From Acetobacterium woodii DSM 1030 (GTDB lineage: Bacteria > Bacillota > Clostridia > Eubacteriales > Eubacteriaceae), in contig NC_016894.1 of NCBI RefSeq assembly GCF_000247605.1, positions 2,407,732-2,471,731 of the forward strand: 64,000 bases of DNA, read 5' to 3'. Under the pieces are notes generated by a model. That model saw nothing but the letters and a program-made list of their open reading frames with translations, was not told where the DNA came from and did no database searches. Below, one piece after another: positions 3,833-62,658 of this stretch. The translations under genes and the position numbers were made by a program. Each line of letters opens with the position of its first letter. The stretch's first letter is position 1.

Positions 3833-4400
3833 TTCCTATCTTTAAAAAATTTTCGATCATCTTATATCCATCTTTAGTCAGGATCGATTCCGGATGAAAT
3901 TGAACCCCATACACGTCATATTCACGATGTTTAACCGCCATTACTTCGCCATCATGATCCTCAGCAATGATCAAAAGTTCATCAGGCAAGGTATTTCGTT
4001 CTGCTCCCAATGAATGATAACGACCTACCTCAATAATCGGTGGTAACCCTCGAAAAATGGGGCTGCCATTAGCTATGTGGACGATACTCTGTTTCCCATG
4101 CATCAGTGTTTTAGCATAAGTTATTTTCCCACCTAAAACCTCACAAATCGCCTGATGTCCCAAACACACACCTAAAATCGGCGTTTTATCTTTAAAATAA
4201 TCAATCACCGCTTCACAAATTCCTGCATCTGCTGGTCTTCCCGGTCCCGGCGAAATAATAATATGATCCGGTTTTAAGGCGATAATCTCGTTCAACGTAT
4301 ATTCATCGTTTTTGATCACGCAAACATTCGGATTGATGATCCCCACGTATTGGTAAAGGTTGTAGGAAAAGCTATCATAATTATCAATTAATAAAATCAT
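3816..4400 (-). CDS. trpG: Anthranilate synthase glutaminase subunit (component II)
   Basis: A 194-residue class I glutamine amidotransferase that supplies ammonia to TrpE. The nucleophile cysteine is C79 in GVCLGHQAI, the His/Glu pair lies in VQFHPESI near residue 168, and the oxyanion strand is ISPGPGRP at 49-56. It shares one base with the trpE stop (TAATG), the tightest coupling in this operon and normal for a stoichiometric complex. Some TrpG proteins also serve p-aminobenzoate synthase (PabA). No pabB is in the window, so that dual role cannot be judged. Confidence 0.94.
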   Translation of the reverse strand: MILLIDNYDSFSYNLYQYVGIINPNVCVIKNDEYTLNEIIALKPDHIIISPGPGRPADAGICEAVIDYFKDKTPILGVCLGHQAICEVLGGKITYAKTLMHGKQSIVHIANGSPIFRGLPPIIEVGRYHSLGAERNTLPDELLIIAEDHDGEVMAVKHREYDVYGVQFHPESILTKDGYKMIENFLKIGNEKND

Positions 4401-5863
4401 TATTCTACCTCCTGAGCCCGTTCCAGCGCTTCAAACATCGCCCTGGCTTTGTTATGTGCTTCAGTAAATTCATTTTCAGGAACACTGTCAGCAACGATAC
4501 CGGCCCCAGCCGAAACGTAGACTTTATCATTTTTCTTGACTGCCATTCGGATTGCTATACACATATCCATATTTCCGGAAAAATCAATATAACCAACTGC
4601 ACCGCCATAAACTCCACGTTTTTGCCCTTCCAACTGATTAATGATTTCAATCGCTCTTTTTTTAGGAGCTCCCGAAAGTGTTCCCGCTGGTAACACAGCC
4701 GCAATGGCATCCAACTGGTCCAATCCTTTTTTTAAAGTTCCAGTAACGGTGGAAGAAATATGTGATACATGGGAATACTTCACAACCTCCTGATAGGTTT
4801 CAACTTTTACCGTTCCAAATTCACTGATTTTGCCTAAATCATTTCGGCCCAGATCCACAAGCATATTATGTTCACTTAATTCTTTTTCATCTTTAAGCAG
4901 TTCAGCGATAAAAACCTCATCTTCCGCCGGCGTTTTTCCGCGTGGACAAGTTCCGGCAATCGGAAAAGTCGCTAATTTAGAATTTTTTAACGCTATCAGC
5001 GTTTCCGGAGAAGCTCCCGCAACTTGAATTGTTTCAAAATCAAGATAAAACATATAGGGTGAAGGATTGATCGTTCGAAGCAAACGATAGGTTGAAAGCA
5101 AATCGCCCTCAAAATCCGCTTCCATCCGATTAGCAATCACAGCTTGAAAAATATCACCCTGATAAATATGCTCTTTTGTTTTTTTTACCATATCACAATA
5201 ATATTCTTTGGAAAAAAGTGACTTAAACTCTGAGGTTACTCGACCTTTAAATGGGACGCTACTGTTGCAATTTTTAATTAACGATTCAATTTCTTTCAGT
5301 TTAATCACGCCATCAATGTAATTTGTTTCAAACTGATCGGTTTTAATATTGACAATCACGATAATTTTTTGCCTAAGATGATCATAGGCAATAACCTTGT
5401 CAAAAAGCATCAGGTTCAAGTCATCAAAATTCTCATCATTTTTATTTTCCAGAATCAAATTAGTTTCAGTGTACTTAACAAAATCATAGGACACGTACCC
5501 CACAAATCCGCCCGTAAAAACTGGTAAGAAATCCAACTTAGGACTTTTCCATTGAGCAAGAATTCCCCGCACCACAGTTCGCGGATCAGCTTTTAAAATT
5601 TCACTCGATTTTCCTTTTTTTATCGTTACCTCACCATCGATGCATTGAATCGAAAGGGTTGGATCATAGCCCAAAAATGAATAACGCCCCCATTTTTCTC
5701 CACCCTCGACACTTTCCAGCAGATAGCTCTTTTTTCCGGTTGACTTTAAACATTTCAAAATTTCAATAGGTGTCTTAATATCCGAAAAAAGTTCAAGACT
5801 GATGGGAATACTCTGATAGCTTTTATAATAACTTCGGGCTTCCTCCATAGATGGTTTAATCAT
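4400..5863 (-). CDS. trpE: Anthranilate synthase component I
   Basis: A 487-residue chorismate-utilising enzyme that makes anthranilate, the first committed step to tryptophan. The N-terminal regulatory half contains LLES at residues 48-51, the motif that binds feedback tryptophan in the family. The C-terminal catalytic half shows FQAVIANRMEADF, GTCPRGKTPAEDE, LVDLGRNDLGK, TLSGAPKKRAIEII and AGAGIVADSVPENE, all in family order. A GAAAGGAAA ribosome site precedes the ATG. It is the first structural gene behind the T-box leader, so it is probably controlled by both tRNA-Trp charging and feedback inhibition. Confidence 0.96.
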   Translation of the reverse strand: MIKPSMEEARSYYKSYQSIPISLELFSDIKTPIEILKCLKSTGKKSYLLESVEGGEKWGRYSFLGYDPTLSIQCIDGEVTIKKGKSSEILKADPRTVVRGILAQWKSPKLDFLPVFTGGFVGYVSYDFVKYTETNLILENKNDENFDDLNLMLFDKVIAYDHLRQKIIVIVNIKTDQFETNYIDGVIKLKEIESLIKNCNSSVPFKGRVTSEFKSLFSKEYYCDMVKKTKEHIYQGDIFQAVIANRMEADFEGDLLSTYRLLRTINPSPYMFYLDFETIQVAGASPETLIALKNSKLATFPIAGTCPRGKTPAEDEVFIAELLKDEKELSEHNMLVDLGRNDLGKISEFGTVKVETYQEVVKYSHVSHISSTVTGTLKKGLDQLDAIAAVLPAGTLSGAPKKRAIEIINQLEGQKRGVYGGAVGYIDFSGNMDMCIAIRMAVKKNDKVYVSAGAGIVADSVPENEFTEAHNKARAMFEALERAQEVE

Positions 5864-5987
5864 AATTGTTTCCTTTCTTTTTCGTTAGCACTACCACGTA
5901 CTAACAATGATTATTTTTGATATTTTTCTAAGCATTTAAGTATGAATCAAAATCAGCACCATTTTTAGATATTGCTATTTTTTTGAA

Positions 5988-6290
5988 ATAAAAAAACGCT
6001 CGTCCATGACTAATAAAATTAATCAAGGACGAGCGAAAATAGTTCAACCCGCGATACCACCTTTATTTACAGAGACTTCCCCCTGTACACTCTGCAGAAT
6101 ACTAACATATTCCTCGCAACTGACGTATGCGTCACGTCGCAGAATACTTAGAAAACAATTGTTTTCCTTTGACTGCGCCCTCAATGGTCCATTTGATGTT
6201 CTGCGTTGTGCGAGGCTCTCAGCCTTCCTCGCTCTCTGTAACTGCACGATTCACCGTTATCTCCACGTCTACGGTTTGATGATCTATTAA
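5988..6290 (-). promoter_or_regulatory. Tryptophan T-box riboswitch with intrinsic terminator
   Basis: Read on the minus strand, the leader contains the T-box core GGTGGTATCGCGGG (about 6048-6063). This is followed by a terminator hairpin with arms CGCTCGTCC (5997-6005) and GGACGAGCG (6027-6035) and a T run (5990-5996 on the minus strand). Upstream is a Stem I with AGAGAG, a GAGG...CTGAGAGCCTC apical hairpin, and a specifier region reading TGG then A at 6191-6189. TGG is the tryptophan codon, matching the trp genes behind it. Uncharged tRNA-Trp should stabilise the antiterminator and turn on trpE. Exact Stem I boundaries are my estimate. Confidence 0.93.
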
Positions 6291-6299
6291 ATTATACAA

Positions 6300-6328
6300 A
6301 TCATAATCTAAATTATTTATCTTGTCAA
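6300..6328 (-). promoter_or_regulatory. Sigma-A type promoter of the trp leader
   Basis: On the minus strand there is TTGACA (6323-6328), a 17-base spacer and TATGAT (6300-6305). This predicts a transcript start near 6293, just upstream of T-box Stem I. It is a near-consensus housekeeping promoter, so most control is expected at the riboswitch. Confidence 0.8.
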
Positions 6329-6410
6329 ATATTTTTTTACAATTCTGGTTTTTATTAAGACATTAAAAACTGCCGGTCCGATATTTTAACCGTTTTGCCA
6401 GATAGACAAA

Positions 6411-6887
6411 CTAGTTGACTGTCATTTTCATCGGGGTAAAACGAATACCTTTGTTCTCCTGCTCGCTTTCAGTAGCTACAAACCCCAAGCGCTCATAGAC
6501 CTTAACTGCGTAGGGTGACGAATTAACTGTCAGCACAATGGGCCTTTGATATTTTTCATTTTTCAAATCAGTAACAACATTATTAAAAAGTTGCGTTGCT
6601 ATTTTTTTATTCTGATGGTCTTTATGAACAAACATCAATGAAATATGAAAATGATCACGGGTTCCAATGACCCCAATAATGTTATTGTTTTCATAAAATC
6701 CCCAAAGTTTTTTATGCCCACTGATAATATCCTCAGCCATTTCTTCCAGTTTGTATTCAAGATAATCGTTGAAGGTTTTATTTCCTTCCGGTGAATAGTC
6801 TTCCGCGATGAATTCACTAAAAACCTGATTTACTAAATCAATTGCTTCTTTTAAGTCGGTATCGTTTATTATTCGTATCATTTTCAA
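6411..6887 (-). CDS. GNAT family N-acetyltransferase
   Basis: A 158-residue protein with the Gcn5-related fold. An N-terminal IRIINDTDLKEAIDLVNQVF is followed by central strands, then the acetyl-CoA motif A region HKDHQNKKIATQLFNNVV (about residues 94-111) and a C-terminal VYERLGFVATE strand. The substrate cannot be inferred. It stands alone between the trp promoter and a long noncoding gap. A possible second start is M3 (MIRIIND). Confidence 0.8.
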   Translation of the reverse strand: MKMIRIINDTDLKEAIDLVNQVFSEFIAEDYSPEGNKTFNDYLEYKLEEMAEDIISGHKKLWGFYENNNIIGVIGTRDHFHISLMFVHKDHQNKKIATQLFNNVVTDLKNEKYQRPIVLTVNSSPYAVKVYERLGFVATESEQENKGIRFTPMKMTVN

Positions 6888-7304
6888 CCTCTAATTTGAT
6901 GTCATTGGGATGATTTTTAATTAGTACCATTTTTACGTTTTAATCAAAATGGTTTGAGTATCGTTTAAAACTATTTAATCGTCCAGACAATCACTCTATC
7001 TCATATTACTATTGTAAATGATGTTTTTGAACACCGTCAAGATAATAATTCCACCTGTAAATGGATGAAATTGGATAATCGAAAAAAGCTCATGATTTTA
7101 CCCGATGATCATAAAATTTTGTCTTGATAAGCTGTTTTCAATGTGACTATTAAAGATAACCTAAACATCTTCGACTACAATTGTAAAATTTGAGATTTTT
7201 TTTAATCTCGTCATAATAATGTGTTAAAATTAAACAAAATCAGATGTGAACAAAAGTATTATTTAAACAAAAAGGGATAACGCTAATATGAAACGGAGAT
7301 TATT
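6888..7304. other. Noncoding gap upstream of the chemoreceptor
   Basis: AT-rich DNA between divergent genes, with no convincing ORF, hairpin or repeat. It should carry the promoters of both neighbours, but I see no near-consensus -35/-10 pair for the chemoreceptor. The only clear signal is the ribosome site CGGAG at about 7292-7296 before the ATG at 7305. Confidence 0.5.
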
Positions 7305-10286
7305 ATGAAAAAATTCAACAAGAATTCAGTAGCCAGTAAAATTGTGGCCCTGGTTTTATTTATTGTAGCTTTAGCTCTTTTAGCGATTGGCATTATTGTT
7401 ACTGTTCTTAATATCAACAGTGAAAATCAACAGATTAACGAGCGAATGAATCTACAACTCAGCAATACAATTGGAAATGTCGAAAAAGCGCTCGAGAGTC
7501 ATAGCAAAATTATTAGCAGTTTAAGTCGATCCATTGGGGTATCTGGTGTTCGGATGACAACCGCGGATTACAATACACTACTCACTGAACAAGTCAATCT
7601 GAATACTGATACCTATGGCGTCGGAGTCTGGTTCGATTATAATAAATATCAACCTGGTCTGAAATATTTTGGTCCTTATGCCTATCGAGACGGTTCAAAT
7701 ATTGTTTTTGAGGAGGCGTTATACAGTACCGATGAATACGACTATCCGAACCAGGACTGGTATCTAATTGGTAAAAACGCTGATGGTAAAATAGCCTGGT
7801 CAAGCCCCTTTAAAGACGATACTCTGGGGATTTCGATGGTAACAGCGAGCGCTGCATTTGATGACAACAATAAAAATTTTAGCGGTGTCGTCACCGGCGA
7901 TATCGATTTAACCAGTCTTCAACAAATGGTCAATGATATCAAAGTGGGTGAAACCGGTCGTGCGTTCCTTGTCGATCAAACCGGTCTTTATATTGCGGAT
8001 CAAGATACCGCTAAAGTAATGAATGTCAATCTGTTGGAAGACCCTAATCAGACCCTGTCAAAACTTGGCTCAAGTATCATCAGTGGCGAAAATGGTACCG
8101 GCGTTTTTACTGATGCCTCCGGAAAAAATAATATTTATTATGCCACGATTCCTTCCACCGGCTGGACGTTAGCTATTATGGAACCACAAAGCGAACTGAA
8201 TCAACCAATAATGATGCTGATTTATCAACTTTTGGGTTTATTCCTCGTAACTCTTTTGATTCTGAGTTTCATTATTACAAAATTGATTAAAGGTGTGGTC
8301 AACCCCATCGTTTTAATCACCGAGCTGTTTCATAAAGCTGAAATCGGAGATTTCGATAGTACTATCTCTGATGATATTATCGCCCGAAATGATGAATTAG
8401 GAAAACTTGGTCAGTCTTTTAATAAACTATCGGAAAATATTCAAGAAAATATTATCATTTTAGAACAAATATCGGTCGGAAATTTAAATGTTCAGGTAAA
8501 TGTCAAATCAGATAAAGATATCCAGTCAAAAAGTTTAATTGAGGTTATTGAAAATCTGAAAAACCTGGAAACGGAAGTAGAGATGCTAACTGAATCAGCA
8601 ATGGCAGGTAACTTGTCCATTCGCAGTGAAGTCAACAAATTCCAAGGTAAATATCACGATATTGTCGTCGGTATGAACAATACCTTGGATGCTGTTATTG
8701 AACCATTAATACTTTCCGCCAATTACGTCGAAATGATCAGCAAAGGGAATATTCCCGAGACAATTTCCGCTTCATTTAATGGCGACTTTAATACCATTAA
8801 AATCAATCTTAACAATTGTATTAGCAACATCAATGCAATGGTATCTGATGTTGATATGCTATCAGCAGCGGCGCTAGAAGGTCAATTAGAAATCCAGGCT
8901 GACGAAACGAAACACAGTGGCGATTATAAAAAAATAATCCGGGGCTTTAACAACACTCTGGAAACGCTATTACACCCCATAAATGAAGCCCGTGAAGTGA
9001 TGACCAAGATGGCTGCCAACGATTATTCTATTGCGATGAACGGTGAGTATAAAGGCGATATGGCAGATTTTGCTCAGGAAATCAACTTGGTTCTGGCGAG
9101 ACTCTTAAATGTTCAGGAAGCATTTATCCAGATCTCCAAAGGCGATACCAGTCGACTCAATGAATTCATCACGATTGGCCACCGTTCCGAAAATGACCGG
9201 CTCACCCCATCCATTGTTGCGACATTGAGTACAATTAATAACCTTATTGAAGAATCACGAAATCTTGCCGAAGCAGGCATCCATGGAAATCTTACCGTTC
9301 GGAGTGATGTTTCGAAATTTGAAGGGGGGTATCGCGACATTGTTGATGGCTTCAATCAAACTCTCGATGCCATTGAAAAGCCTATCAGCGAAGCTACTCT
9401 TGTGTTGGAAAAAATGGCAGCAGGTAATCTTACCGTTTACATGCACGGTGATTATCTGGGTCGTTATGCGATTATCAAGAATTCAATTAATGATACAATC
9501 CGATCATTTAACGATATTCTAGGGAATATCAACCAATCGGCTGGTGAAGTCACCTCTGGTTCGATGCAGGTATCTCACGGCAGCCAAGCGCTAGCTCAAG
9601 GAGCTACTGAACAAGCGAGCTCAATGGAAGAATTGAATGCTTCAATTGCCGAAGTGGCTGTTCAAACTAAGGAGAATGCCCAAAACGCCAACCAGGCCAA
9701 TCAATTATCGACAACAGCCCATACAAATGCTAAAAATGGAAACAAGCAAATGCAACAGATGCTCAATTCGATGGAAGAAATCAATGCCGCATCAACTAAA
9801 ATTTCTAATATCATCAAGGTCATTGATGACATCGCCTTTCAAACTAATATTTTAGCTCTGAACGCGGCGGTTGAAGCAGCCAGAGCCGGACAACAGGGCC
9901 GAGGTTTTGCCGTGGTAGCGGAAGAGGTAAGAACCTTAGCCGGTAGAAGTGCTGAAGCGGCAAAACAAACAGCGGAACTCATCGAAGGTTCTATTTCTAA
10001 AGTTCATGAAGGGACCGTTATTGCCAATAATACAGCTGAATCACTTAATGAAATTGTAACCGGCATTGCCAGTGTTTCAGAACTTGTTCGAAAAATTGAT
10101 GCCGCTTCGAAAGAGCAAACTGCTTCAATCAGCCAGATTAATACTGGCATCGATCAGGTTTCGGTAGTTGTTCAAACAAACTCGGCAACTGCTGAGGAAA
10201 GTGCTGCCGCGAGTGAAGAGTTGTATAGCCAAGCAGAATTATTGAAAAATATGGTCAATAATTTTAACTTGATTTCGTCAAAATAA
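7305..10286 (+). CDS. Methyl-accepting chemotaxis protein with tandem HAMP-like modules
   Basis: A 993-residue membrane chemoreceptor. TM1 is near residues 13-35. The extracellular double-Cache-type domain (about 40-300) contains YGVGVWFDYNKYQPG and DYPNQDWYLIGK. TM2 is near 303-328, followed by a canonical HAMP. A long cytoplasmic stretch (about 385-740) then repeats the pattern GxLxxRxxxxxFxGxYxxIVxGxNxTLDAxxxP several times, as in poly-HAMP receptors. The signalling hairpin tip is near 842-863 (DIAFQTNILALNAAVEAARAG), flanked by methylation-helix sequence. There is no C-terminal CheR-tether pentapeptide. It faces two CheX-like genes across a shared terminator. The ligand is unknown. Confidence 0.93.
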   Translation: MKKFNKNSVASKIVALVLFIVALALLAIGIIVTVLNINSENQQINERMNLQLSNTIGNVEKALESHSKIISSLSRSIGVSGVRMTTADYNTLLTEQVNLNTDTYGVGVWFDYNKYQPGLKYFGPYAYRDGSNIVFEEALYSTDEYDYPNQDWYLIGKNADGKIAWSSPFKDDTLGISMVTASAAFDDNNKNFSGVVTGDIDLTSLQQMVNDIKVGETGRAFLVDQTGLYIADQDTAKVMNVNLLEDPNQTLSKLGSSIISGENGTGVFTDASGKNNIYYATIPSTGWTLAIMEPQSELNQPIMMLIYQLLGLFLVTLLILSFIITKLIKGVVNPIVLITELFHKAEIGDFDSTISDDIIARNDELGKLGQSFNKLSENIQENIIILEQISVGNLNVQVNVKSDKDIQSKSLIEVIENLKNLETEVEMLTESAMAGNLSIRSEVNKFQGKYHDIVVGMNNTLDAVIEPLILSANYVEMISKGNIPETISASFNGDFNTIKINLNNCISNINAMVSDVDMLSAAALEGQLEIQADETKHSGDYKKIIRGFNNTLETLLHPINEAREVMTKMAANDYSIAMNGEYKGDMADFAQEINLVLARLLNVQEAFIQISKGDTSRLNEFITIGHRSENDRLTPSIVATLSTINNLIEESRNLAEAGIHGNLTVRSDVSKFEGGYRDIVDGFNQTLDAIEKPISEATLVLEKMAAGNLTVYMHGDYLGRYAIIKNSINDTIRSFNDILGNINQSAGEVTSGSMQVSHGSQALAQGATEQASSMEELNASIAEVAVQTKENAQNANQANQLSTTAHTNAKNGNKQMQQMLNSMEEINAASTKISNIIKVIDDIAFQTNILALNAAVEAARAGQQGRGFAVVAEEVRTLAGRSAEAAKQTAELIEGSISKVHEGTVIANNTAESLNEIVTGIASVSELVRKIDAASKEQTASISQINTGIDQVSVVVQTNSATAEESAAASEELYSQAELLKNMVNNFNLISSK

Positions 10287-30613: not shown

Positions 30614-33586
30614 TTAAATTTTTTTTATTAATTTCATTTTGTTATTGCATTTTTTTTGCAAATCAAGAATTTGCTTTTTTAAGCTGCTATTCGTTTTTGA
30701 AAACTCAAATAATGGCCGTCCAATGTAAAAACCTTGAGCATAATCAACGCCCATCTGAATAACCGTCTCCAGATCGCTTGACTCTTCGATTCCTTCGGCT
30801 ACAACCTTGACTCCTTTTTTATGACAAAAGTCGATCAAATTAGCAACTAAGTTTTGCTTATCACTATTACTGTGAATTCCTTGAATCATTTCAATATCTA
30901 TTTTTATGATATCCGGCAATAATGAAAGAATCCGAACCTCATTGGAATAACCGCTGCCAAAATCGTCCACTGCAATACGGGCCCCATGTTTTTTAAATAA
31001 ATTCACTTTATTACTGAGATTAGCCATATTAATATTTTCTTCTTCAGTCACTTCTAACACAATATTTTTGAAAATCTTACCATAACGGCGTTCGAGCATT
31101 AAATGATCTTCATCATTTAATATTTGGCTGGGAATACTATTTATAAATATCGTCCGATCACCAATTTCGTTAGCTTGTTCATCAATTGTCTGGAATGCCA
31201 TTAAAATGATCATTCTTTCCAGTTGAGCTAATTTTGACTGCGCGGCCGCAACCGCTAAAATCTCTTTAGGATTTTTAAAATTATCCAGCAAAGGTCGCAT
31301 TAAAGCCTCATACGCGATAAATTCACCGGTTTTTAAATCAACGATTGGCTGAAAAGCAAAGCGAATCAATTGTTCGTCCAATAGTCGATTGATAGCCTCG
31401 CGGTTTTCTAACAAATATGACATTTGCAGATAATAATCTCGATTAAATTCAAACAAACAACCTTTTTCTTTGTGTTTTGCTTCATACATTGCAAAATCAG
31501 AAAGTTTTAAAAGGTCAGTTACATTATCGGCATCTTGCGGGTACCAGGCCACCCCAGCCGAAAAACGAATCCGAACATTCTCACCATCTGGCGTATTGAT
31601 TGAAAATGTTTCGCTATATTTATATAGTTCATTAATAATCTTGCGTAGTTCATCCTGATCTTGATAGCCATGTAAATAAATGGCAAACTCATCTCCTGAT
31701 ATTCGCGAAATGATTCCCTGGTATTTTTCAAAATAGCGAAATATTTCGCTAGCACGAATAATCAGACGATCACCAACATCATGGCCAAAATTATCGTTGA
31801 TATATTTTAAATTATCAAGATCAATAAAAACCATCGCCCCAATTTCATCGGGCTTTTCCTTCAGTTTTCGTTTGACTTCTCGTTTTAAAGCCAAATTACT
31901 CGATAAATGGGTTAATGCATCAAAATCTAATTCGTTGGCTAATCGACGATTTTCTTTAATCTCATTGGTTACATCTAAAACAACCCCAACTAAACCGCTC
32001 GGCTGTTTTGCTTCTAAAATACGTAACCATAGTTGTTTCTCGGTGTATTCATCATAATATTCATAAATATCCGGATGATCTTCCATACGATGCAAGGTTA
32101 ATTTATTATAATATTCAGACCAATCTTCTTTGGAAATCTGAGTACCTGGATCAATATGAAGTAACCAGTATAAAAAATCCGTCAGAATGACATATTTGCT
32201 GTCATCAAAAACTTCATAACCGCCAATCGGCAATAAGCTTAATTCGAGTATTTTTGACGTGGTTTTGGAAACATTCATCAAACTTAAATTAAGCAATTGC
32301 AGTGCTGTTGTCAAATCATCAATTTCACGCATCCCTGTTGGCTTAAAATGGATTTCATCATATGGCGAAAGATTACGGACATACTTCGACAATCGTGAGA
32401 TCTTTCGCGTGAAAAAATAAACCAAAACTAAAACGGCTGTAAATGCTATGAATGTCGTTGCAACTATGCTGTAATTCAGCTTTTCTCGAACCGATGCAGA
32501 ATTTTCTCTTAAAACATCACGGGGTACAAAACACGCTAATGACCAATTTCGATCAATAAAAGGTGAGTTGTCACTGTAGACTTTCAATTTTCGCACTGAT
32601 GCGTACATCGTTCCCAGCTTATCCAACGAGGTTTCAAAAATCGCTTCATTTTTTAGAGCTTTTAATTGTAACTGATCATTGTTTTGTAAATCTGCTTTTG
32701 CCAGCACGCCACTGGGAATAAACCAGTCCAGATCCAGCGTATTGTCAGACATTCCGGCAATCACATAAAAACTATTATCATAAAGTAAGTCTGAATCCGG
32801 TAAATAGTATTGCGAAAAATAGGATAAATCAATTTCGATCCCAATAACTCCGTAGCCTTGACCGTTTTCATCTAAAACAGGTAACGTATAACATACCACC
32901 TTTTGATTATCATTTAAGACATCTTTAGGTTTAGACCAATAACCATATCGCTCCATTTCAGATCCTTTATATTGTGAAGCCGCCCAAATTGGCTTTTCAT
33001 AAAAATCAAAATAATCATTATCGTTATTCTCCTGAAGATCAAGATTCCATCCAATGCTGGTTGCGATCTGATATTCTTTGGCAATCGCAGTTGGGCCAAT
33101 TTCCATTATAAAATTTGTCGAATCCTGTGTATTTGGCGTCGAATTACGGATATATATTGCCGAATGAGCCTGACTATTCTCTTTATTGGCATTAGAGCCA
33201 TTAAGAATAAAAAATGCTCCTGTAACATGATTTTGCTTTAAAATTGAAACAAGTGTATCACTTGCCACCGAAGCTGTCTGATTATATAAATCATTATCAA
33301 GATACAAACTTTCGGTTGCTTTTCCATTTTTTTTGGCTAAACTAACTAATTTTTCATCCATATTTTCGTTTTCAGCGACCATACTACCAATTAATTGACC
33401 GACTGTAGAATCAAAGGTCTGCGCTCGATTTTCTGTTGTATTGTTAAGCAATCGCACCGCTTCTGCATCTAATAAATAATATACTTGAGAAACCCATAAT
33501 GCTAAAACCAGTGCCAAACTTTGAAAAATAACAATCAATGCCAGCATAACGTTTAGCTGCCTTCGAAGCGTCCAAGTTCTTTTCAT
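30614..33586 (-). CDS. Membrane GGDEF-EAL cyclic-di-GMP signalling protein
   Basis: A 990-residue sensor. TM1 is near 13-35, then a large extracellular Cache-like domain (about 36-365), TM2 near 369-392 and a PAS-like linker. A GGDEF domain follows (DALTHLSSNLALKREV near 565; active-site variant SGDEF near 630; IDLDNLKYINDNFGHDVGD), and then a complete EAL domain (EALMRP near 758, NSIPSQIL, EVTEEENIN, DDFGSGYSN, DIIKIDIEMI, VVAEGIEE). Both halves keep key catalytic residues, so direction of net activity cannot be set from sequence. It lies 33 bases after a solute-binding lipoprotein gene, almost surely in one operon. Confidence 0.93.
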   Translation of the reverse strand: MKRTWTLRRQLNVMLALIVIFQSLALVLALWVSQVYYLLDAEAVRLLNNTTENRAQTFDSTVGQLIGSMVAENENMDEKLVSLAKKNGKATESLYLDNDLYNQTASVASDTLVSILKQNHVTGAFFILNGSNANKENSQAHSAIYIRNSTPNTQDSTNFIMEIGPTAIAKEYQIATSIGWNLDLQENNDNDYFDFYEKPIWAASQYKGSEMERYGYWSKPKDVLNDNQKVVCYTLPVLDENGQGYGVIGIEIDLSYFSQYYLPDSDLLYDNSFYVIAGMSDNTLDLDWFIPSGVLAKADLQNNDQLQLKALKNEAIFETSLDKLGTMYASVRKLKVYSDNSPFIDRNWSLACFVPRDVLRENSASVREKLNYSIVATTFIAFTAVLVLVYFFTRKISRLSKYVRNLSPYDEIHFKPTGMREIDDLTTALQLLNLSLMNVSKTTSKILELSLLPIGGYEVFDDSKYVILTDFLYWLLHIDPGTQISKEDWSEYYNKLTLHRMEDHPDIYEYYDEYTEKQLWLRILEAKQPSGLVGVVLDVTNEIKENRRLANELDFDALTHLSSNLALKREVKRKLKEKPDEIGAMVFIDLDNLKYINDNFGHDVGDRLIIRASEIFRYFEKYQGIISRISGDEFAIYLHGYQDQDELRKIINELYKYSETFSINTPDGENVRIRFSAGVAWYPQDADNVTDLLKLSDFAMYEAKHKEKGCLFEFNRDYYLQMSYLLENREAINRLLDEQLIRFAFQPIVDLKTGEFIAYEALMRPLLDNFKNPKEILAVAAAQSKLAQLERMIILMAFQTIDEQANEIGDRTIFINSIPSQILNDEDHLMLERRYGKIFKNIVLEVTEEENINMANLSNKVNLFKKHGARIAVDDFGSGYSNEVRILSLLPDIIKIDIEMIQGIHSNSDKQNLVANLIDFCHKKGVKVVAEGIEESSDLETVIQMGVDYAQGFYIGRPLFEFSKTNSSLKKQILDLQKKCNNKMKLIKKI

Positions 33587-33619
33587 TTATTTAACCTTAT
33601 TTTTTTTCTTTCAAAAGTA

Positions 33620-35095
33620 TTATTCCTCTACATACGAAATTTCCAATGACTCTAACTGAGTCTGAATACTGGCGAGCCACTCATCAAAACGTGCATTCAT
33701 GTTCAGATTTTCTAATATTTCTTGTTCTGACATTCCTTGCTCTTTTAAGATAGCTGTCTGTTGTGAACCTTGTTTGGCTATGTCAGTAAGCGATTTTTCT
33801 AAGATGGTTCGAACATTATAACTGCCATTAAAAGGTTTTGACGCATAAGTGTTTGATTTCATGATCTGATTTAAAGCAATATCATAAACTGCAGCAACAT
33901 TTTTTTCGGTTGAATCACCAGTCCGTAAAGACTCCAAGGATGTGTTAAATTCAGTATTCGTATAAGCATCTGTCTCGACTGGTAAATAACCAGTTGTCAT
34001 TGCGAAAGGAATATTCTGTTCCTGCGCAGTAAACCATTTTAGAAAAAGAACGGCCCCTTCTTGATTTTCAGGTGTTGATTTCGCAACACTCATCCCTGCC
34101 CCCTGTTGAATAGCTGTTGCTGTCCCATTTTTAAATACGGGGTATGCAAGGGCTAGAAAATCGATCGGAGACTGTGCATTATTTTTTTCAATCCAGGTCG
34201 GAAAATAAGCTGCTCCCGATGACGATCCAACATAAGCAGCTAAATCTCCTGCTTTAATATCATCAGAACGAAACTTACCAATTGCATTTAAATAACCTAA
34301 ACTCATTCCACCATAATAAAAATCAAATATTTTTTTGAGGGCTTCATGATTTAATACTGTTTGTTCATTCTTTCCATCAATAATTTCAACACCTAATTGT
34401 TTATTGGCAATAATAATAAAATTACCAACCGAGTCTACCCCCATAAAGCTTTTTCCGTCCCAGGCAGTTTCAGGGGTTTGAGCATCAGTCCATTGATAAT
34501 AAGCCTTTGCCACTTGATAAATTCCTTCCCAAGTAGTTAGGTCTTGGCGATTAAAACCGGTGGCTGCCGCAAAATCATTCCAGGCAGTGTCGTTAACATA
34601 CAATAGTTCAGTACTTTTTACAATTGGGATACTTAACAACCGATTCCCATCAAATTTTCCATCATTTAAGAATTCCGCAACATATCGTTTTTGATCATCT
34701 TCAGAAAAATAATCATTTAAATCACAAATTTTTCCAAGTTGATCAATTTCCAGCGCTTTGTCCGGATAAGAAGAAAATAAATCCGGCATCGGATCAGAGT
34801 TAATAACCCCTTTAGCAGAGTCAGTAACAGCCTTTTCCAATTCTGCAATACTGCCTTTTGCCACCGCATTTACAATAACCCCTTTTTCCAAACCGATGCT
34901 TTTATTAAATTGTTCAACCGCAGTCTCTAATGCAATTTTATTGGCTCCAACATAGTAATGCCACAAAGTGATCGAAACCGGATTTTTGGGGTCCAATACC
35001 GATTTTTTTTGCCCGCTGGTTAATCCTGATGAACAGGCCGTCAATACGATTAACATGCTTAAAATCAGACAACCAGCTTTTATTCTTTTATTCAT
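33620..35095 (-). CDS. Extracellular solute-binding lipoprotein (ABC family 1 type)
   Basis: A 491-residue protein with a lipoprotein signal and lipobox LTAC (C21), then the family pattern PVSITLWHYYVGANKIALETAVEQFN. Internal features are DLFSSYPDKALEIDQLGKICDL, GAGMSVAKSTPENQEGAVLFLKWF and QNIPFAMTTGYLPV, all as in sugar-type binding proteins. No permease or ATPase gene is adjacent; the next gene is a GGDEF-EAL protein. It may thus present a ligand to that sensor rather than to a transporter. The ligand is unknown. Confidence 0.9.
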   Translation of the reverse strand: MNKRIKAGCLILSMLIVLTACSSGLTSGQKKSVLDPKNPVSITLWHYYVGANKIALETAVEQFNKSIGLEKGVIVNAVAKGSIAELEKAVTDSAKGVINSDPMPDLFSSYPDKALEIDQLGKICDLNDYFSEDDQKRYVAEFLNDGKFDGNRLLSIPIVKSTELLYVNDTAWNDFAAATGFNRQDLTTWEGIYQVAKAYYQWTDAQTPETAWDGKSFMGVDSVGNFIIIANKQLGVEIIDGKNEQTVLNHEALKKIFDFYYGGMSLGYLNAIGKFRSDDIKAGDLAAYVGSSSGAAYFPTWIEKNNAQSPIDFLALAYPVFKNGTATAIQQGAGMSVAKSTPENQEGAVLFLKWFTAQEQNIPFAMTTGYLPVETDAYTNTEFNTSLESLRTGDSTEKNVAAVYDIALNQIMKSNTYASKPFNGSYNVRTILEKSLTDIAKQGSQQTAILKEQGMSEQEILENLNMNARFDEWLASIQTQLESLEISYVEE

Positions 35096-35420: not shown

Positions 35421-35837
35421 TTATTTGGTTTGATTTTTTTCGATTTCCGTCACACAGGTGGTTTTAATCGTTTCTACCAGAAATTGTAGGGCGTCAATCA
35501 CATGCGGTCTAATATCACCACCAATGAGAACATACATAATATCATCACCAAGCTCCAGGTAACCTTCATTTAGCCAAACCCGTACATGAAATATGCCCTC
35601 TAACTGATAAGTTTTTGCGATAGCCTCTTCAACCATTTCCGGATTATAGGTAAACTCCATTCCGGTTACTAATGAACCATCATTTAAACCTTGACGTACC
35701 TGAGCTTTAGGGGTTTGGCGTACCGTGCCATTGTGGACTAAATACATCCCTTCCGCAAGCGCTTCCGGATCATTTTTAGCTTCTTTTAGCCATTCATCAA
35801 CAGAAGGTGAACGCTTTTTTTTCTTTTGGATAATCAT
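35421..35837 (-). CDS. MoaE-like protein (molybdopterin synthase large-subunit family)
   Basis: A 138-residue protein. The order LAEGMYLVHNGTVRQTPKAQ, VTGMEFTYNPEMVEEAIAKT, HVRVWLNEGYLELGDDIMYV, LIGGDIRPHVIDALQFLV resembles the clostridial MoaE-like family, in which a beta-hammerhead core ends in a helix starting R-x-H-V-x-D-A-L. The usual C-terminal catalytic lysine of MoaE (IWKKE) is not apparent, and no other molybdenum-cofactor genes are nearby, so the function is uncertain. AAAGGAG precedes the start. Confidence 0.55.
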   Translation of the reverse strand: MIIQKKKKRSPSVDEWLKEAKNDPEALAEGMYLVHNGTVRQTPKAQVRQGLNDGSLVTGMEFTYNPEMVEEAIAKTYQLEGIFHVRVWLNEGYLELGDDIMYVLIGGDIRPHVIDALQFLVETIKTTCVTEIEKNQTK

Positions 35838-59721: not shown

Positions 59722-62658
59722 TCAGTCCTTATATTGAACCCCGACTTTTCTCATCGTCATTATTTGTTCTGAAAACTCAGCTTGTTTCATATCATTAAGC
59801 TTATTTAAAATAAAAATCATATGTTTTCTTGCTTCTTCAATAATACTTTTGAATTTTTTGTATTCGCTGGAATCAGCTGTAAATATCGTTAATTGTCTTT
59901 TATATATTTCGATGTAATTTTTTTCTAGCTCAAGTGCAAATTGCAAAAACTCTTTATCCGAAGGAGAATTGACACTTCCGCAATTATTTGCGACATAATC
60001 AGCTTGTTGCAGCGAAATATCTGACACCATTTTATCCAAATGGATATTTTTGTATTGATCATCACTTGCAAGATCAATCATCAATCGTTTATGTTTGAAT
60101 TCTTCCTGGGCAAAACTGCGAACAACCGCTTTTAGTTTTTCCGAGCAAACTTCGGAAAATTTTTCATACAGCTCAGCTCCGTCCTCTTCAATCTTAGCAA
60201 GTAGCAAAAACCATTCCTTCAAATTCATCGTTTGAAACTCTTTTTTTACCTCATCAAACTCTGACGATTCTGAAGCGATAGTATCTAAAGTAACTAGTGA
60301 ACTTTTGTTTGATTTTTCATCTAAAAAATCTGGTGTGAATCGATTCATATCTGAAATATTTGATTCTTTGAAATTGATCTCATCTTCTGCCGGAACAAAC
60401 TTAAAGAGATTTTTTTCGCTACTCACTTGTGATGATTCAGGTATTATGAGATCGTTACTATCAGCAAATTCATTATTACTAGGTAAATCGATTTCTGACT
60501 TTTCTCTAAAATGAAACTGCACTGTGTTCGTACCAGGTAATTCAATTGATTTACCTAAAAATTGAGTCTCATTAACATCAGATTTTTCACTAATTACTGG
60601 AGACTGTCCCTTTGAGTCCGGTGATTTTTCATTATTAAATAATGAGTGAATATTCTCAATCACTGGTTTCTCATCAGAATACAGAGAATGAACTTTTTCA
60701 TGAACGGTATTTTCTTTGTTTTTAGAATACTTACTTTCATTCATAGAGATTTCAGTCTTTTGTGAATTCAGAATTTTTCTTGAGTTTTCTATTTCTTCAT
60801 TTGTTTTCGACAGTTTCTCGTTAGCATTATATAATTCTTGACTTGTTGTCTGTAATTCGTTTTTCATGGTATCAAGTTCGTTTTTTATGGTTTCCAACTT
60901 CTGTTTCAGAAGTTCTGGCAGTTTATTTCCTTTTTCCAACTCCGTTTTTTGATTATCCAATTCAATATTAACCGTCAAAAGTTCATCTTTCGACAACTCT
61001 AAAAGATTATTATTAATCCGCAATTCGTTTTTACTCGTAATTAGTTTTTCGTTGACATTCTGTAACTCTTCTTTTGCTATCACTAATAATTCATCATTAT
61101 TCTGTAATTCTTTTCGACCTTGACTCAGTTTTTTATCAATTTCATGCAGCTCTGCTTTTGATTTTTTCAATTGTCCATCATTATTCTGCAATTCCGTTCG
61201 ATCACGACTCAGTTTTTCATCGATTTCATGCAGTTCTGTTTTTGATCTTTTCAATCGTTCATCATTGCTCTGCAATTCCATTTGATCTTTGATCAATTTT
61301 TTAGTAATTTTCTGCAACTCTTCATTCGATTTTTCCAATCGAAGATCGTTGTTTTGCAACTCCGTTTGCTTTTGTTGTAATTCTTCATTGACTTTTTCCA
61401 ACTCAGCTGTTGCTGTATACAATTGGTCATCATTATTCTGTAACTCTGTTTGAACGCGAGTCAGTTTCTCATCCATATTTTGCATTTCAACACGAGTTCG
61501 ACTTATTTTTTCAGTGATTTGCTGCAATTCTTCGTTAGCTTTTGCCAGTCGTTCATCATTGCTGCACAGTTCAGCCCGATCTTGAATTAACTTTTTTCCA
61601 ACTCGTTGTAGCTCTTCTTTTGATGTTTCCAATAACATTATATTATTTTGCAATTCTGTTTTGTCTTCACTCAGTTTTTTATTAATTGTCTGTAATTCTT
61701 CTTTAGCTGTTTCTAATAATTCATTTGTCTTTTGCAATTCTGTTTTATTTTGAGCCAGCTGCTCATTAACACTCACTAATTCGTTTTTGTATTTTTGCAA
61801 AAGCTCGCTGTTATTCTGCAATTCCGTACGATTTGTTATTAGTTTTTCATTAATTGTCTGTAAATTTTCCTGTGCGATTTCGACTAATTGGTCATTCATC
61901 TCTAAATCGCTTTTGGTCACATCCAACTTTCCGTTTGTTTTCTGCAACTCTATCTGCAACATTTCATAAATCTCATTATTTGTCTGTAGTTCACTTTTGA
62001 TAGTTGCTAATTCTACATATTTAGAATTAAGGGTATTCTCAATTTTTAATAATTCTTGTTCAGCATCCATTTGTACTTGAAGATTAGTTTTTTCATCCAA
62101 GAAAATTGGATATCTTTGACTTTCGATTACGTTTTGTTGTAACTTAATTTTATTTGAAGCATTCTCAAAAATAACGATAAATAATGCTGGTTCCTCCTTA
62201 TGATTCTCTAAGGGTCCCACTGTGAGATTCACCAATACGTACCCACCGATTGTTTTAACTTTAAGGTCTGGTGAATATACAATTTTTTGTAGTGTCACGG
62301 CTTCATTCAAAGCAACTGTAAGCTTTCGTCGTATGCCAACACGAGACATTTTCAGAATATTGCTTGTCCCATGATATCCTGGCACTGGCTCTAAAAACAC
62401 ACCCGTTTGTCCGTGAATAAACTGAATTTGTCCTAATGCATCAACAACAACTGCCGCTGGAGCAAACTGTTTTAAAAGCATGCGTTCAGTCAACCATCGC
62501 AATGATTTTTTTACCGGTTTTGATATCTTAAAACCGGTTGTTTGCAATTCATCATCGCCTGCTGTCATCTGTTCAATAAATTGATCATTAACTTTGTAAC
62601 GGGGATAATCATCATTATCTTTTTTGGTATTTTCAACCTTATTTTTTTGTTCCGACAT
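59722..62658 (-). CDS. PAS / 28-residue-repeat coiled coil / ferritin-like fusion protein
   Basis: A 978-residue soluble protein with no signal or TM. Residues 50-180 resemble the PAS domain of CheB-CheR fusion proteins (LTERMLLKQFAPAAVVVDAL, FIHGQTGVFLEPVPG, LKMSRVGIRRKLTVALNEA). About 195-635 are a heptad coiled coil built of about fourteen tandem 28-residue repeats (consensus TELQNNDELLxxSKEELQxINEKLxxDR). About 640-810 are a polar, disordered linker with short EKS repeats. About 812-960 form a ferritin-like four-helix domain: helix 1 KIEEDGAELYEKF, helix 2 FAQEEFKHKRLM (E853/H856), helix 3 LELEKNYIEIYKRQ, helix 4 IIEEARKHMIFI. The metal set is nearly complete. It is probably a redox/oxygen-linked scaffold; no function is proven. 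Confidence 0.85.
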   Translation of the reverse strand: MSEQKNKVENTKKDNDDYPRYKVNDQFIEQMTAGDDELQTTGFKISKPVKKSLRWLTERMLLKQFAPAAVVVDALGQIQFIHGQTGVFLEPVPGYHGTSNILKMSRVGIRRKLTVALNEAVTLQKIVYSPDLKVKTIGGYVLVNLTVGPLENHKEEPALFIVIFENASNKIKLQQNVIESQRYPIFLDEKTNLQVQMDAEQELLKIENTLNSKYVELATIKSELQTNNEIYEMLQIELQKTNGKLDVTKSDLEMNDQLVEIAQENLQTINEKLITNRTELQNNSELLQKYKNELVSVNEQLAQNKTELQKTNELLETAKEELQTINKKLSEDKTELQNNIMLLETSKEELQRVGKKLIQDRAELCSNDERLAKANEELQQITEKISRTRVEMQNMDEKLTRVQTELQNNDDQLYTATAELEKVNEELQQKQTELQNNDLRLEKSNEELQKITKKLIKDQMELQSNDERLKRSKTELHEIDEKLSRDRTELQNNDGQLKKSKAELHEIDKKLSQGRKELQNNDELLVIAKEELQNVNEKLITSKNELRINNNLLELSKDELLTVNIELDNQKTELEKGNKLPELLKQKLETIKNELDTMKNELQTTSQELYNANEKLSKTNEEIENSRKILNSQKTEISMNESKYSKNKENTVHEKVHSLYSDEKPVIENIHSLFNNEKSPDSKGQSPVISEKSDVNETQFLGKSIELPGTNTVQFHFREKSEIDLPSNNEFADSNDLIIPESSQVSSEKNLFKFVPAEDEINFKESNISDMNRFTPDFLDEKSNKSSLVTLDTIASESSEFDEVKKEFQTMNLKEWFLLLAKIEEDGAELYEKFSEVCSEKLKAVVRSFAQEEFKHKRLMIDLASDDQYKNIHLDKMVSDISLQQADYVANNCGSVNSPSDKEFLQFALELEKNYIEIYKRQLTIFTADSSEYKKFKSIIEEARKHMIFILNKLNDMKQAEFSEQIMTMRKVGVQYKD

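Follow-up and report, generated by a model that had tools for sequence, protein, structure and literature searches.

In the acetogen Acetobacterium woodii DSM 1030, a solute-binding lipoprotein is encoded directly upstream of a membrane GGDEF–EAL protein, and we consider it very probable that the lipoprotein acts without a transporter as an input subunit dedicated to that sensor, one of its states (loaded or empty) docking on the sensor ectodomain and shifting the balance of cyclic di-GMP (c-di-GMP). The pair lies in a stretch of 64,000 nucleotides (contig NC_016894.1, positions 2,407,732 to 2,471,731), hereafter the window, of a genome that consists of a single contig of 4,044,777 bases and has other Acetobacterium species as its close relatives. 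There is good support for the view that the sensor, rather than a transporter, is what the lipoprotein serves: the two genes co-occur and adjoin one another across genomes, output domains are swapped over a constant input of solute-binding protein (SBP) and ectodomain, no candidate permease was found among those scanned, and fusion models place both proteins. An initial annotation had proposed that the lipoprotein delivers its ligand, thought to be sugar-like, to the sensor; this same evidence upholds the partnership, with ligand binding putative and complex formation predicted. SBP-gated signalling is itself already known; the interest lies in a widespread modular input with interchangeable outputs.

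On the minus strand, the SBP gene is followed directly by the sensor gene, and both open reading frames (ORFs) sit where the initial annotation had placed them, as a lipoprotein gene and a membrane GGDEF–EAL gene separated by 33 bases. The parts of the pair, in window coordinates, are as follows.

33620–35095, minus strand: solute-binding lipoprotein of the SBP_bac_8 family, 491 amino acids (ORF list; Pfam SBP_bac_8, 85.9 bits against a cut-off of 27)
35033–35044, minus strand: lipobox L-T-A-C, with C21 as the lipid anchor site (from the translation; all 9 aligned sequences have C21)
33587–33619, minus strand: intergenic gap of 33 bases, with the SBP and sensor genes in one frame (ORF coordinates)
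30614–33586, minus strand: membrane sensor with GGDEF and EAL domains, 990 amino acids (ORF and Pfam scan)
33494–33550, minus strand: first transmembrane segment (TM1) of the sensor, residues ~13–31 (hydropathy scan)
32456–33493, minus strand: Cache-like extracellular domain, probably with a tandem Cache/PDC fold (homology across four output classes; PDB profile matches)
32411–32467, minus strand: second transmembrane segment (TM2) of the sensor, residues ~374–392 (hydropathy scan)
31463–31924, minus strand: GGDEF domain with the signature SGDEF (Pfam, 99 bits, over cut-off)
30713–31399, minus strand: EAL domain (Pfam, 166.8 bits, over cut-off)

The adjacency of the two genes is conserved, which indicates that the pairing is more than chance. 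Of 40 same-family genomes, 22 carry the SBP, and the identical 22 carry the N-terminal part of the sensor (residues 1–550); the two genes are adjacent in 21 of them. In a draw of 391 evenly sampled genomes of the class (223 genera; SBP match threshold E = 1e-25), 47 genomes from 34 genera have an SBP match, and by manual count the pair is adjacent in 27 of these 34 genera. The same ectodomain is encoded downstream on the same strand for 34 of the 36 SBPs that score at least 270 bits against the family profile; one of the two misses is a contig end and the other (L190) is real. An ectodomain adjoins 4 of 6 SBPs at 250–270 bits and 0 of 7 below 250 bits, with both cuts chosen after viewing the table. 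The 36 strong SBPs include the window, a second pair of the same genome, an SBP split by a stop (L175) and a locus with a sensor cut by a contig end and matched over 157 amino acids (L189); the family genome G004 falls outside them, its sensor nonetheless adjacent in the family survey, and the lowest group includes one SBP with its own start cut (L217). Co-occurrence, which the initial annotation had offered as a check, and adjacency, the lack of which it would have taken as refutation, are therefore both borne out.

The individually named loci are the best 80 of 249 by SBP similarity and so are biased towards close relatives, the class draw being less biased. Among these 80, only L099, from the same genome as G011 (see below), lacks a sensor adjoining the SBP; elsewhere the spacing is longer (468 bases in L135), the order is reversed (L160) or the sensor is broken (L159). 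The second pair of A. woodii (L023; 3738000–3752000, local 4171–7708) has an SBP of 39% identity; 7 bases beyond it comes the gene for a protein of 700 residues that has GGDEF and a PDC-type match and lacks EAL. The family also extends to gut genera and Clostridioides difficile lineages. The SBP listing comprises 136 ORFs, including fragments (L175 and L220) and repeated entries for a genome present in two collections. We took weak class-level SBP matches beside phosphoglucomutase, PfkB, amidase and SSF genes as an outgroup. The split SBP of L175 (genome G366) and the split sensor of L159 are broken members with intact relatives elsewhere, G027 has an additional partial SBP at a contig end, and a metagenome bin titled Acetobacterium woodii (L098) has an SBP with only 70% identity to that of the window, which makes one of the two species labels look doubtful. 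In four loci of C. difficile lineages (L111, L112, L118 and L129), the region upstream of the SBP/GGDEF–EAL pair has, on the same strand, a gene of ~128 amino acids without a Pfam match and a MotB-like gene, for which the Pfam match is shown in L112. As a possible mobile home, viral contigs yielded no relative to a single-protein query that reaches close relatives only, and the SBP and ectodomain occur in two plasmid records, one of 2.6 Mb that looks like a chromosome and one circular of 154 kb; we rejected both homes.

What follows the ectodomain varies. Once identical partner proteins, partners that were short or cut by contig ends and those without the two-TM layout had been excluded, 115 distinct pairs comprised 65 with GGDEF–EAL, 17 with GGDEF only, 10 with a histidine kinase and 23 with a LuxR-type helix-turn-helix output; one member of the GGDEF-only class (L103) may be a truncated GGDEF–EAL gene, and contig ends truncate L102 and L115. 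Pfam scans of 4 of the 10 kinase partners found HisKA, HATPase and receiver domains, with GGDEF as well in 3 of the 4; 6 of the 23 LuxR-type partners were scanned, and profiles built from the scanned members match 10/10 kinase and 23/23 LuxR partners. Across all four output classes, the ectodomains can be aligned almost end to end (hhalign E values of 4e-32 to 2e-93), whereas those of five further two-TM sensors encoded in the same genome, used as a comparison set, gave partial matches at probabilities of at most 56%. Trees of SBPs and ectodomains for 114 pairs (without L160) agree in their distances (r = 0.90) and share 70 of 111 bipartitions, and output class changes 8 times on either tree; the tree program warned of long branches, above all in the ectodomain tree. 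The constant input with four outputs is a natural experiment on the rewiring of a sensor module. We suggest, tentatively and as a possibility that we would not call probable, that one plug-in module, an SBP lipoprotein with its matching Cache-like ectodomain, is common to Clostridia and their neighbours. It would sense a single class of extracellular cue, need no transporter and be joined to four outputs, among them SBP-gated, membrane-tethered LuxR-type regulators. On this view the cue may be a single diffusible compound (a phosphodiester, dinucleotide or oligosaccharide) that all of them sense, and not a range of unrelated nutrients.

Four loci of the LuxR class (L185, L186, L187 and L188) have a small divergent gene (~130–180 amino acids) upstream of the pair that might be the target of the regulator; it matches DUF6591 in L186 and L187 and has no Pfam match in L185 and L188. 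One locus of an uncultured Lachnospiraceae (L156) carries SBP–sensor pairs in tandem, the first with a GGDEF–EAL output and the next with a hybrid kinase.

We searched for a transporter that the lipoprotein might serve. The genome encodes 32 BPD_transp_1 permeases (PF00528, which does not take in every importer type), none of them within the window and the nearest ~78 kb from the SBP gene. Among the part of the window ORFs that was scanned there are two ATP-binding cassette (ABC) ATPases, of the PmtA-like exporter type (43709) and the ABC-F type (52280), both at least 8.6 kb away, in keeping with the earlier statement that no permease or ATPase lies near. The window SBP has the SBP_bac_8 profile and two-lobe fold of ABC importer SBPs and lacks their hallmark of being encoded with a permease and an ATPase. 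Three proteins of the genome exceed the SBP_bac_8 cut-off, namely both pair members and a third that is probably PotD-like, since its neighbours are permeases of polyamine type with PotC as the best match. At NCBIfam thresholds of 1e-50 and 1e-40, which hide weaker secondary matches, none of the 30 permeases scanned has a sugar-type best match, so that the orphan permease that would have spoken for a transporter partner was not found among them. The best matches are of nickel/oligopeptide, amino acid, sulfonate/nitrate, phosphate, molybdate, methionine or polyamine types; the sole sugar-type name listed, GlcU for L255, is secondary and weak (46.3 bits, the cut-off being 340) where PotC is best, and four permeases (198–240 amino acids, short for the MalF/MalG type) have no match at the thresholds used. 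The nearest permease in five other genomes is at least about 7 kb from the SBP, among the matches listed (down to about 2e-14). Across the 136 SBP neighbourhoods, some of them cut by contig ends, one has a permease-profile match within 2 kb, beside a weak SBP relative; this profile was built from the permeases of A. woodii itself and may miss some sugar types. Elsewhere in the genome (1641217–1648232), two GGDEF–EAL genes adjoin, and are convergent with, the genes of the probable PotD-like SBP and its permeases, a possible link between polyamines and c-di-GMP.

In the window pair and 27 others, the SBP gene shares its reading frame with the sensor gene, so read-through fusions can be translated; we made them through the stop codons, in the natural order. 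The alignment for the window fusion held 27 in-frame fusions and 46 of 58 other pairs as separate rows (120 rows in all). AlphaFold gave the window fusion a mean predicted local distance difference test score (pLDDT) of 90.5 and a predicted template modelling score (pTM) of 0.87, and the LuxR-class fusion L186 (56 rows; a disordered joint of ~40 residues) a mean pLDDT of 88.3 and a pTM of 0.83, both without a non-partner control. By a rough calculation, the pTM would be ~0.55 if the two parts were unplaced relative to each other, and the observed values imply a mean cross-part error of about 4–5.5 angstroms. The SBP is thus predicted to dock on the sensor ectodomain, with the models as support and not proof; structure prediction, which the initial annotation had suggested, places both parts in these single-chain models.

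The ectodomain of the window sensor comprises ~345 residues between two TM segments that start near residues 13 and 374 (hydropathy), and its predicted secondary structure is compatible with a long N-terminal helix and two PAS-like sheets between the TM helices. Its profile matches five PDB sequences at E values up to 1, all of them chemoreceptor (MCP), Cache or histidine-kinase sensor chains (E = 0.0039–0.43). To call it Cache-like is fair, but weak for the window protein alone, in which Pfam dCache_1 falls below its cut-off (19.4 against 45 bits); two relatives pass the cut-off of 27 for the related family MCP-like_PDC_1 (L113, 33.7 bits; L023, 31.9 bits). The catalytic domains are intact. 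The GGDEF site is S630–F634 (SGDEF) with D589 also present, and the G-D-E-F core is kept in 66/66 GGDEF–EAL and 17/17 GGDEF-only relatives; neither the window sensor nor these relatives have an RxxD inhibitory site at the usual place. All of E760, N816, E845, D874, D875, K895, E931 and Q951, the catalytic residues of EAL domains, are present in the window sensor, and each is kept in 61 to 66 of the 66 GGDEF–EAL relatives. Degenerate GGDEF motifs occur in 2 of the 9 kinase rows included in this check.

The fold closest to the SBP is that of a dinucleotide-binding protein (7c15_A; Z = 36.2 over 379 residues, root-mean-square deviation 2.9), followed by UgpB with glycerophosphocholine (6r1b, Z = 35.1), a cyclic-maltosyl-maltose-binding protein (7bvt, Z = 34.6) and maltose-type proteins; a sequence search gave weak matches to 7bvt and UgpB. 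These neighbours score so close together that they do not fix the ligand class, and the sugar-like ligand of the initial annotation is one possible option among several, the nearest folds binding a dinucleotide, glycerophosphocholine or maltose-type sugars. Conservation extends along much of the SBP and includes invariant aromatic and polar residues (W45, Y47, Y48, K160, E163 and Q331). Third genes conserved near the pairs were sought as hints to the ligand, and nothing general emerged; the lone SBP relative L190 adjoins a carbohydrate-phosphorylase gene, a weak hint of a sugar.

In the mechanism that we propose, the lipid-anchored SBP would capture an extracellular small molecule outside the membrane, and one of its states, loaded or empty, is predicted to dock on the Cache-like ectodomain of the neighbouring GGDEF–EAL protein. 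The change would pass through TM2 and the juxtamembrane linker and would shift the balance between the making (SGDEF) and breaking (EAL) of c-di-GMP in one direction or the other. In relatives, the same SBP–ectodomain module would drive GGDEF-only enzymes, hybrid histidine kinases and membrane-tethered LuxR-type regulators.

By analogy, the best reading is that the arrangement works like NspS–MbaA of Vibrio cholerae, as transporter-free, binding-protein-gated sensing. In that system, which has homologues in Sinorhizobium meliloti, the SBP gene lies directly upstream of a two-TM GGDEF–EAL gene, and NspS informs MbaA of the ligand, with import not required for the response (PMC8079147, PMC9993111). 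The window pair likewise has its SBP gene directly upstream of a gene for a TM–ectodomain–TM–GGDEF–EAL protein, and MbaA, which is thought to be bifunctional, shares the SGDEF signature (PMC8079147). NspS is set apart by its description as a PotD-like polyamine binder, whereas the nearest folds to the window SBP are of dinucleotide, UgpB and maltose types; the window SBP and the putative PotD-like protein of its own genome, both SBP_bac_8, have no significant similarity (BLAST best E = 7.4). Unlike NspS–MbaA, the window system is Gram-positive and its SBP is lipid-anchored.

In LuxP–LuxQ, the SBP docks on the extracellular domain of the sensor, and LuxQ has a tandem PAS/Cache-like fold. Both LuxP–LuxQ and XylFII–LytS differ from the window pair in having histidine kinase outputs and other SBP families. 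An SBP–sensor complex is mentioned for XylFII–LytS (PMC10384115), and in CuaD–CuaS–CuaR of Ruminiclostridium cellulolyticum a Clostridial SBP lipoprotein binds the extracellular region of the sensor that its neighbouring gene encodes, with differences from the window pair in its two-component output, an extracellular part modelled as helical, cellobiose as the ligand and an adjoining transporter operon (PMC10384115). A candidate precedent in Clostridium perfringens was set aside: the paper names an SBP gene and GGDEF genes, but in different loci, and it is therefore no precedent (PMC2879425). Among the open-licence PMC papers searched, judged mostly from search listings, SBP-gated c-di-GMP control is described for proteobacteria, chiefly NspS–MbaA, and we found no report of an SBP–GGDEF pair in Firmicutes, which fits the earlier remark that such pairing is less described in Gram-positive bacteria. 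A family spread over Clostridia, and present twice in an acetogen, would make the external signals of Gram-positive c-di-GMP networks directly testable.

Other explanations of the pair need to be weighed. The SBP could serve an ABC importer encoded elsewhere, with the sensor reading the ligand alone and adjacency only co-expressing uptake and response. Cache domains often bind ligands directly. SBP genes are, moreover, sometimes found apart from transporter genes (PMC9602780). The absence of a sugar-type best match among the scanned permeases, the single permease-profile match in the SBP neighbourhoods and the retention of the ectodomain partner while the output changes make this explanation unlikely. 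We think it very unlikely that the SBP no longer binds a ligand and is a constant structural part of the sensor, or that it reports on wall polymers instead of a diffusible solute. The fusion model is confident without a ligand and the SBP is conserved along much of its length, but its two-lobe fold resembles, over some 380 residues and with Z up to 36, SBPs whose structures were solved with ligands, and its invariant aromatic and polar residues may line the cleft. That conserved adjacency reflects shared ancestry without functional coupling is extremely improbable. Similar trees are expected for any co-inherited neighbours, but the pair adjoins in 27 of 34 genera, other neighbours do not recur beyond small groups of loci, and both parts persist while the output takes four different forms.

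Several observations weigh against a dedicated input subunit. In G011, a draft genome of 87% completeness, both genes are kept on different contigs with other neighbours and are unlinked; L190 and weaker relatives (2 of 6 at 250–270 bits and 7 of 7 below) have no neighbouring sensor; and the agreement of the trees is equally explained by joint inheritance. The models are of single-chain read-through fusions, with no non-partner control, predicted aligned error or coordinates, their geometry is constrained by the joint and TM1, and the L186 alignment shares 16 rows with that of the window fusion, so the second model is not fully independent.

Across the window, a scan for RNA families, c-di-GMP riboswitches included, gave none that reaches its gathering score, and promoter-like sites number 30 where chance predicts 26.7, no real excess. 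An ORF of 978 residues (59722–62658) has no Pfam match at E = 0.001. With no apparent link to the pair, a MoaE-like protein (37.9 bits, cut-off 23.4) is encoded at 35421–35837, 325 bases upstream of the SBP gene.

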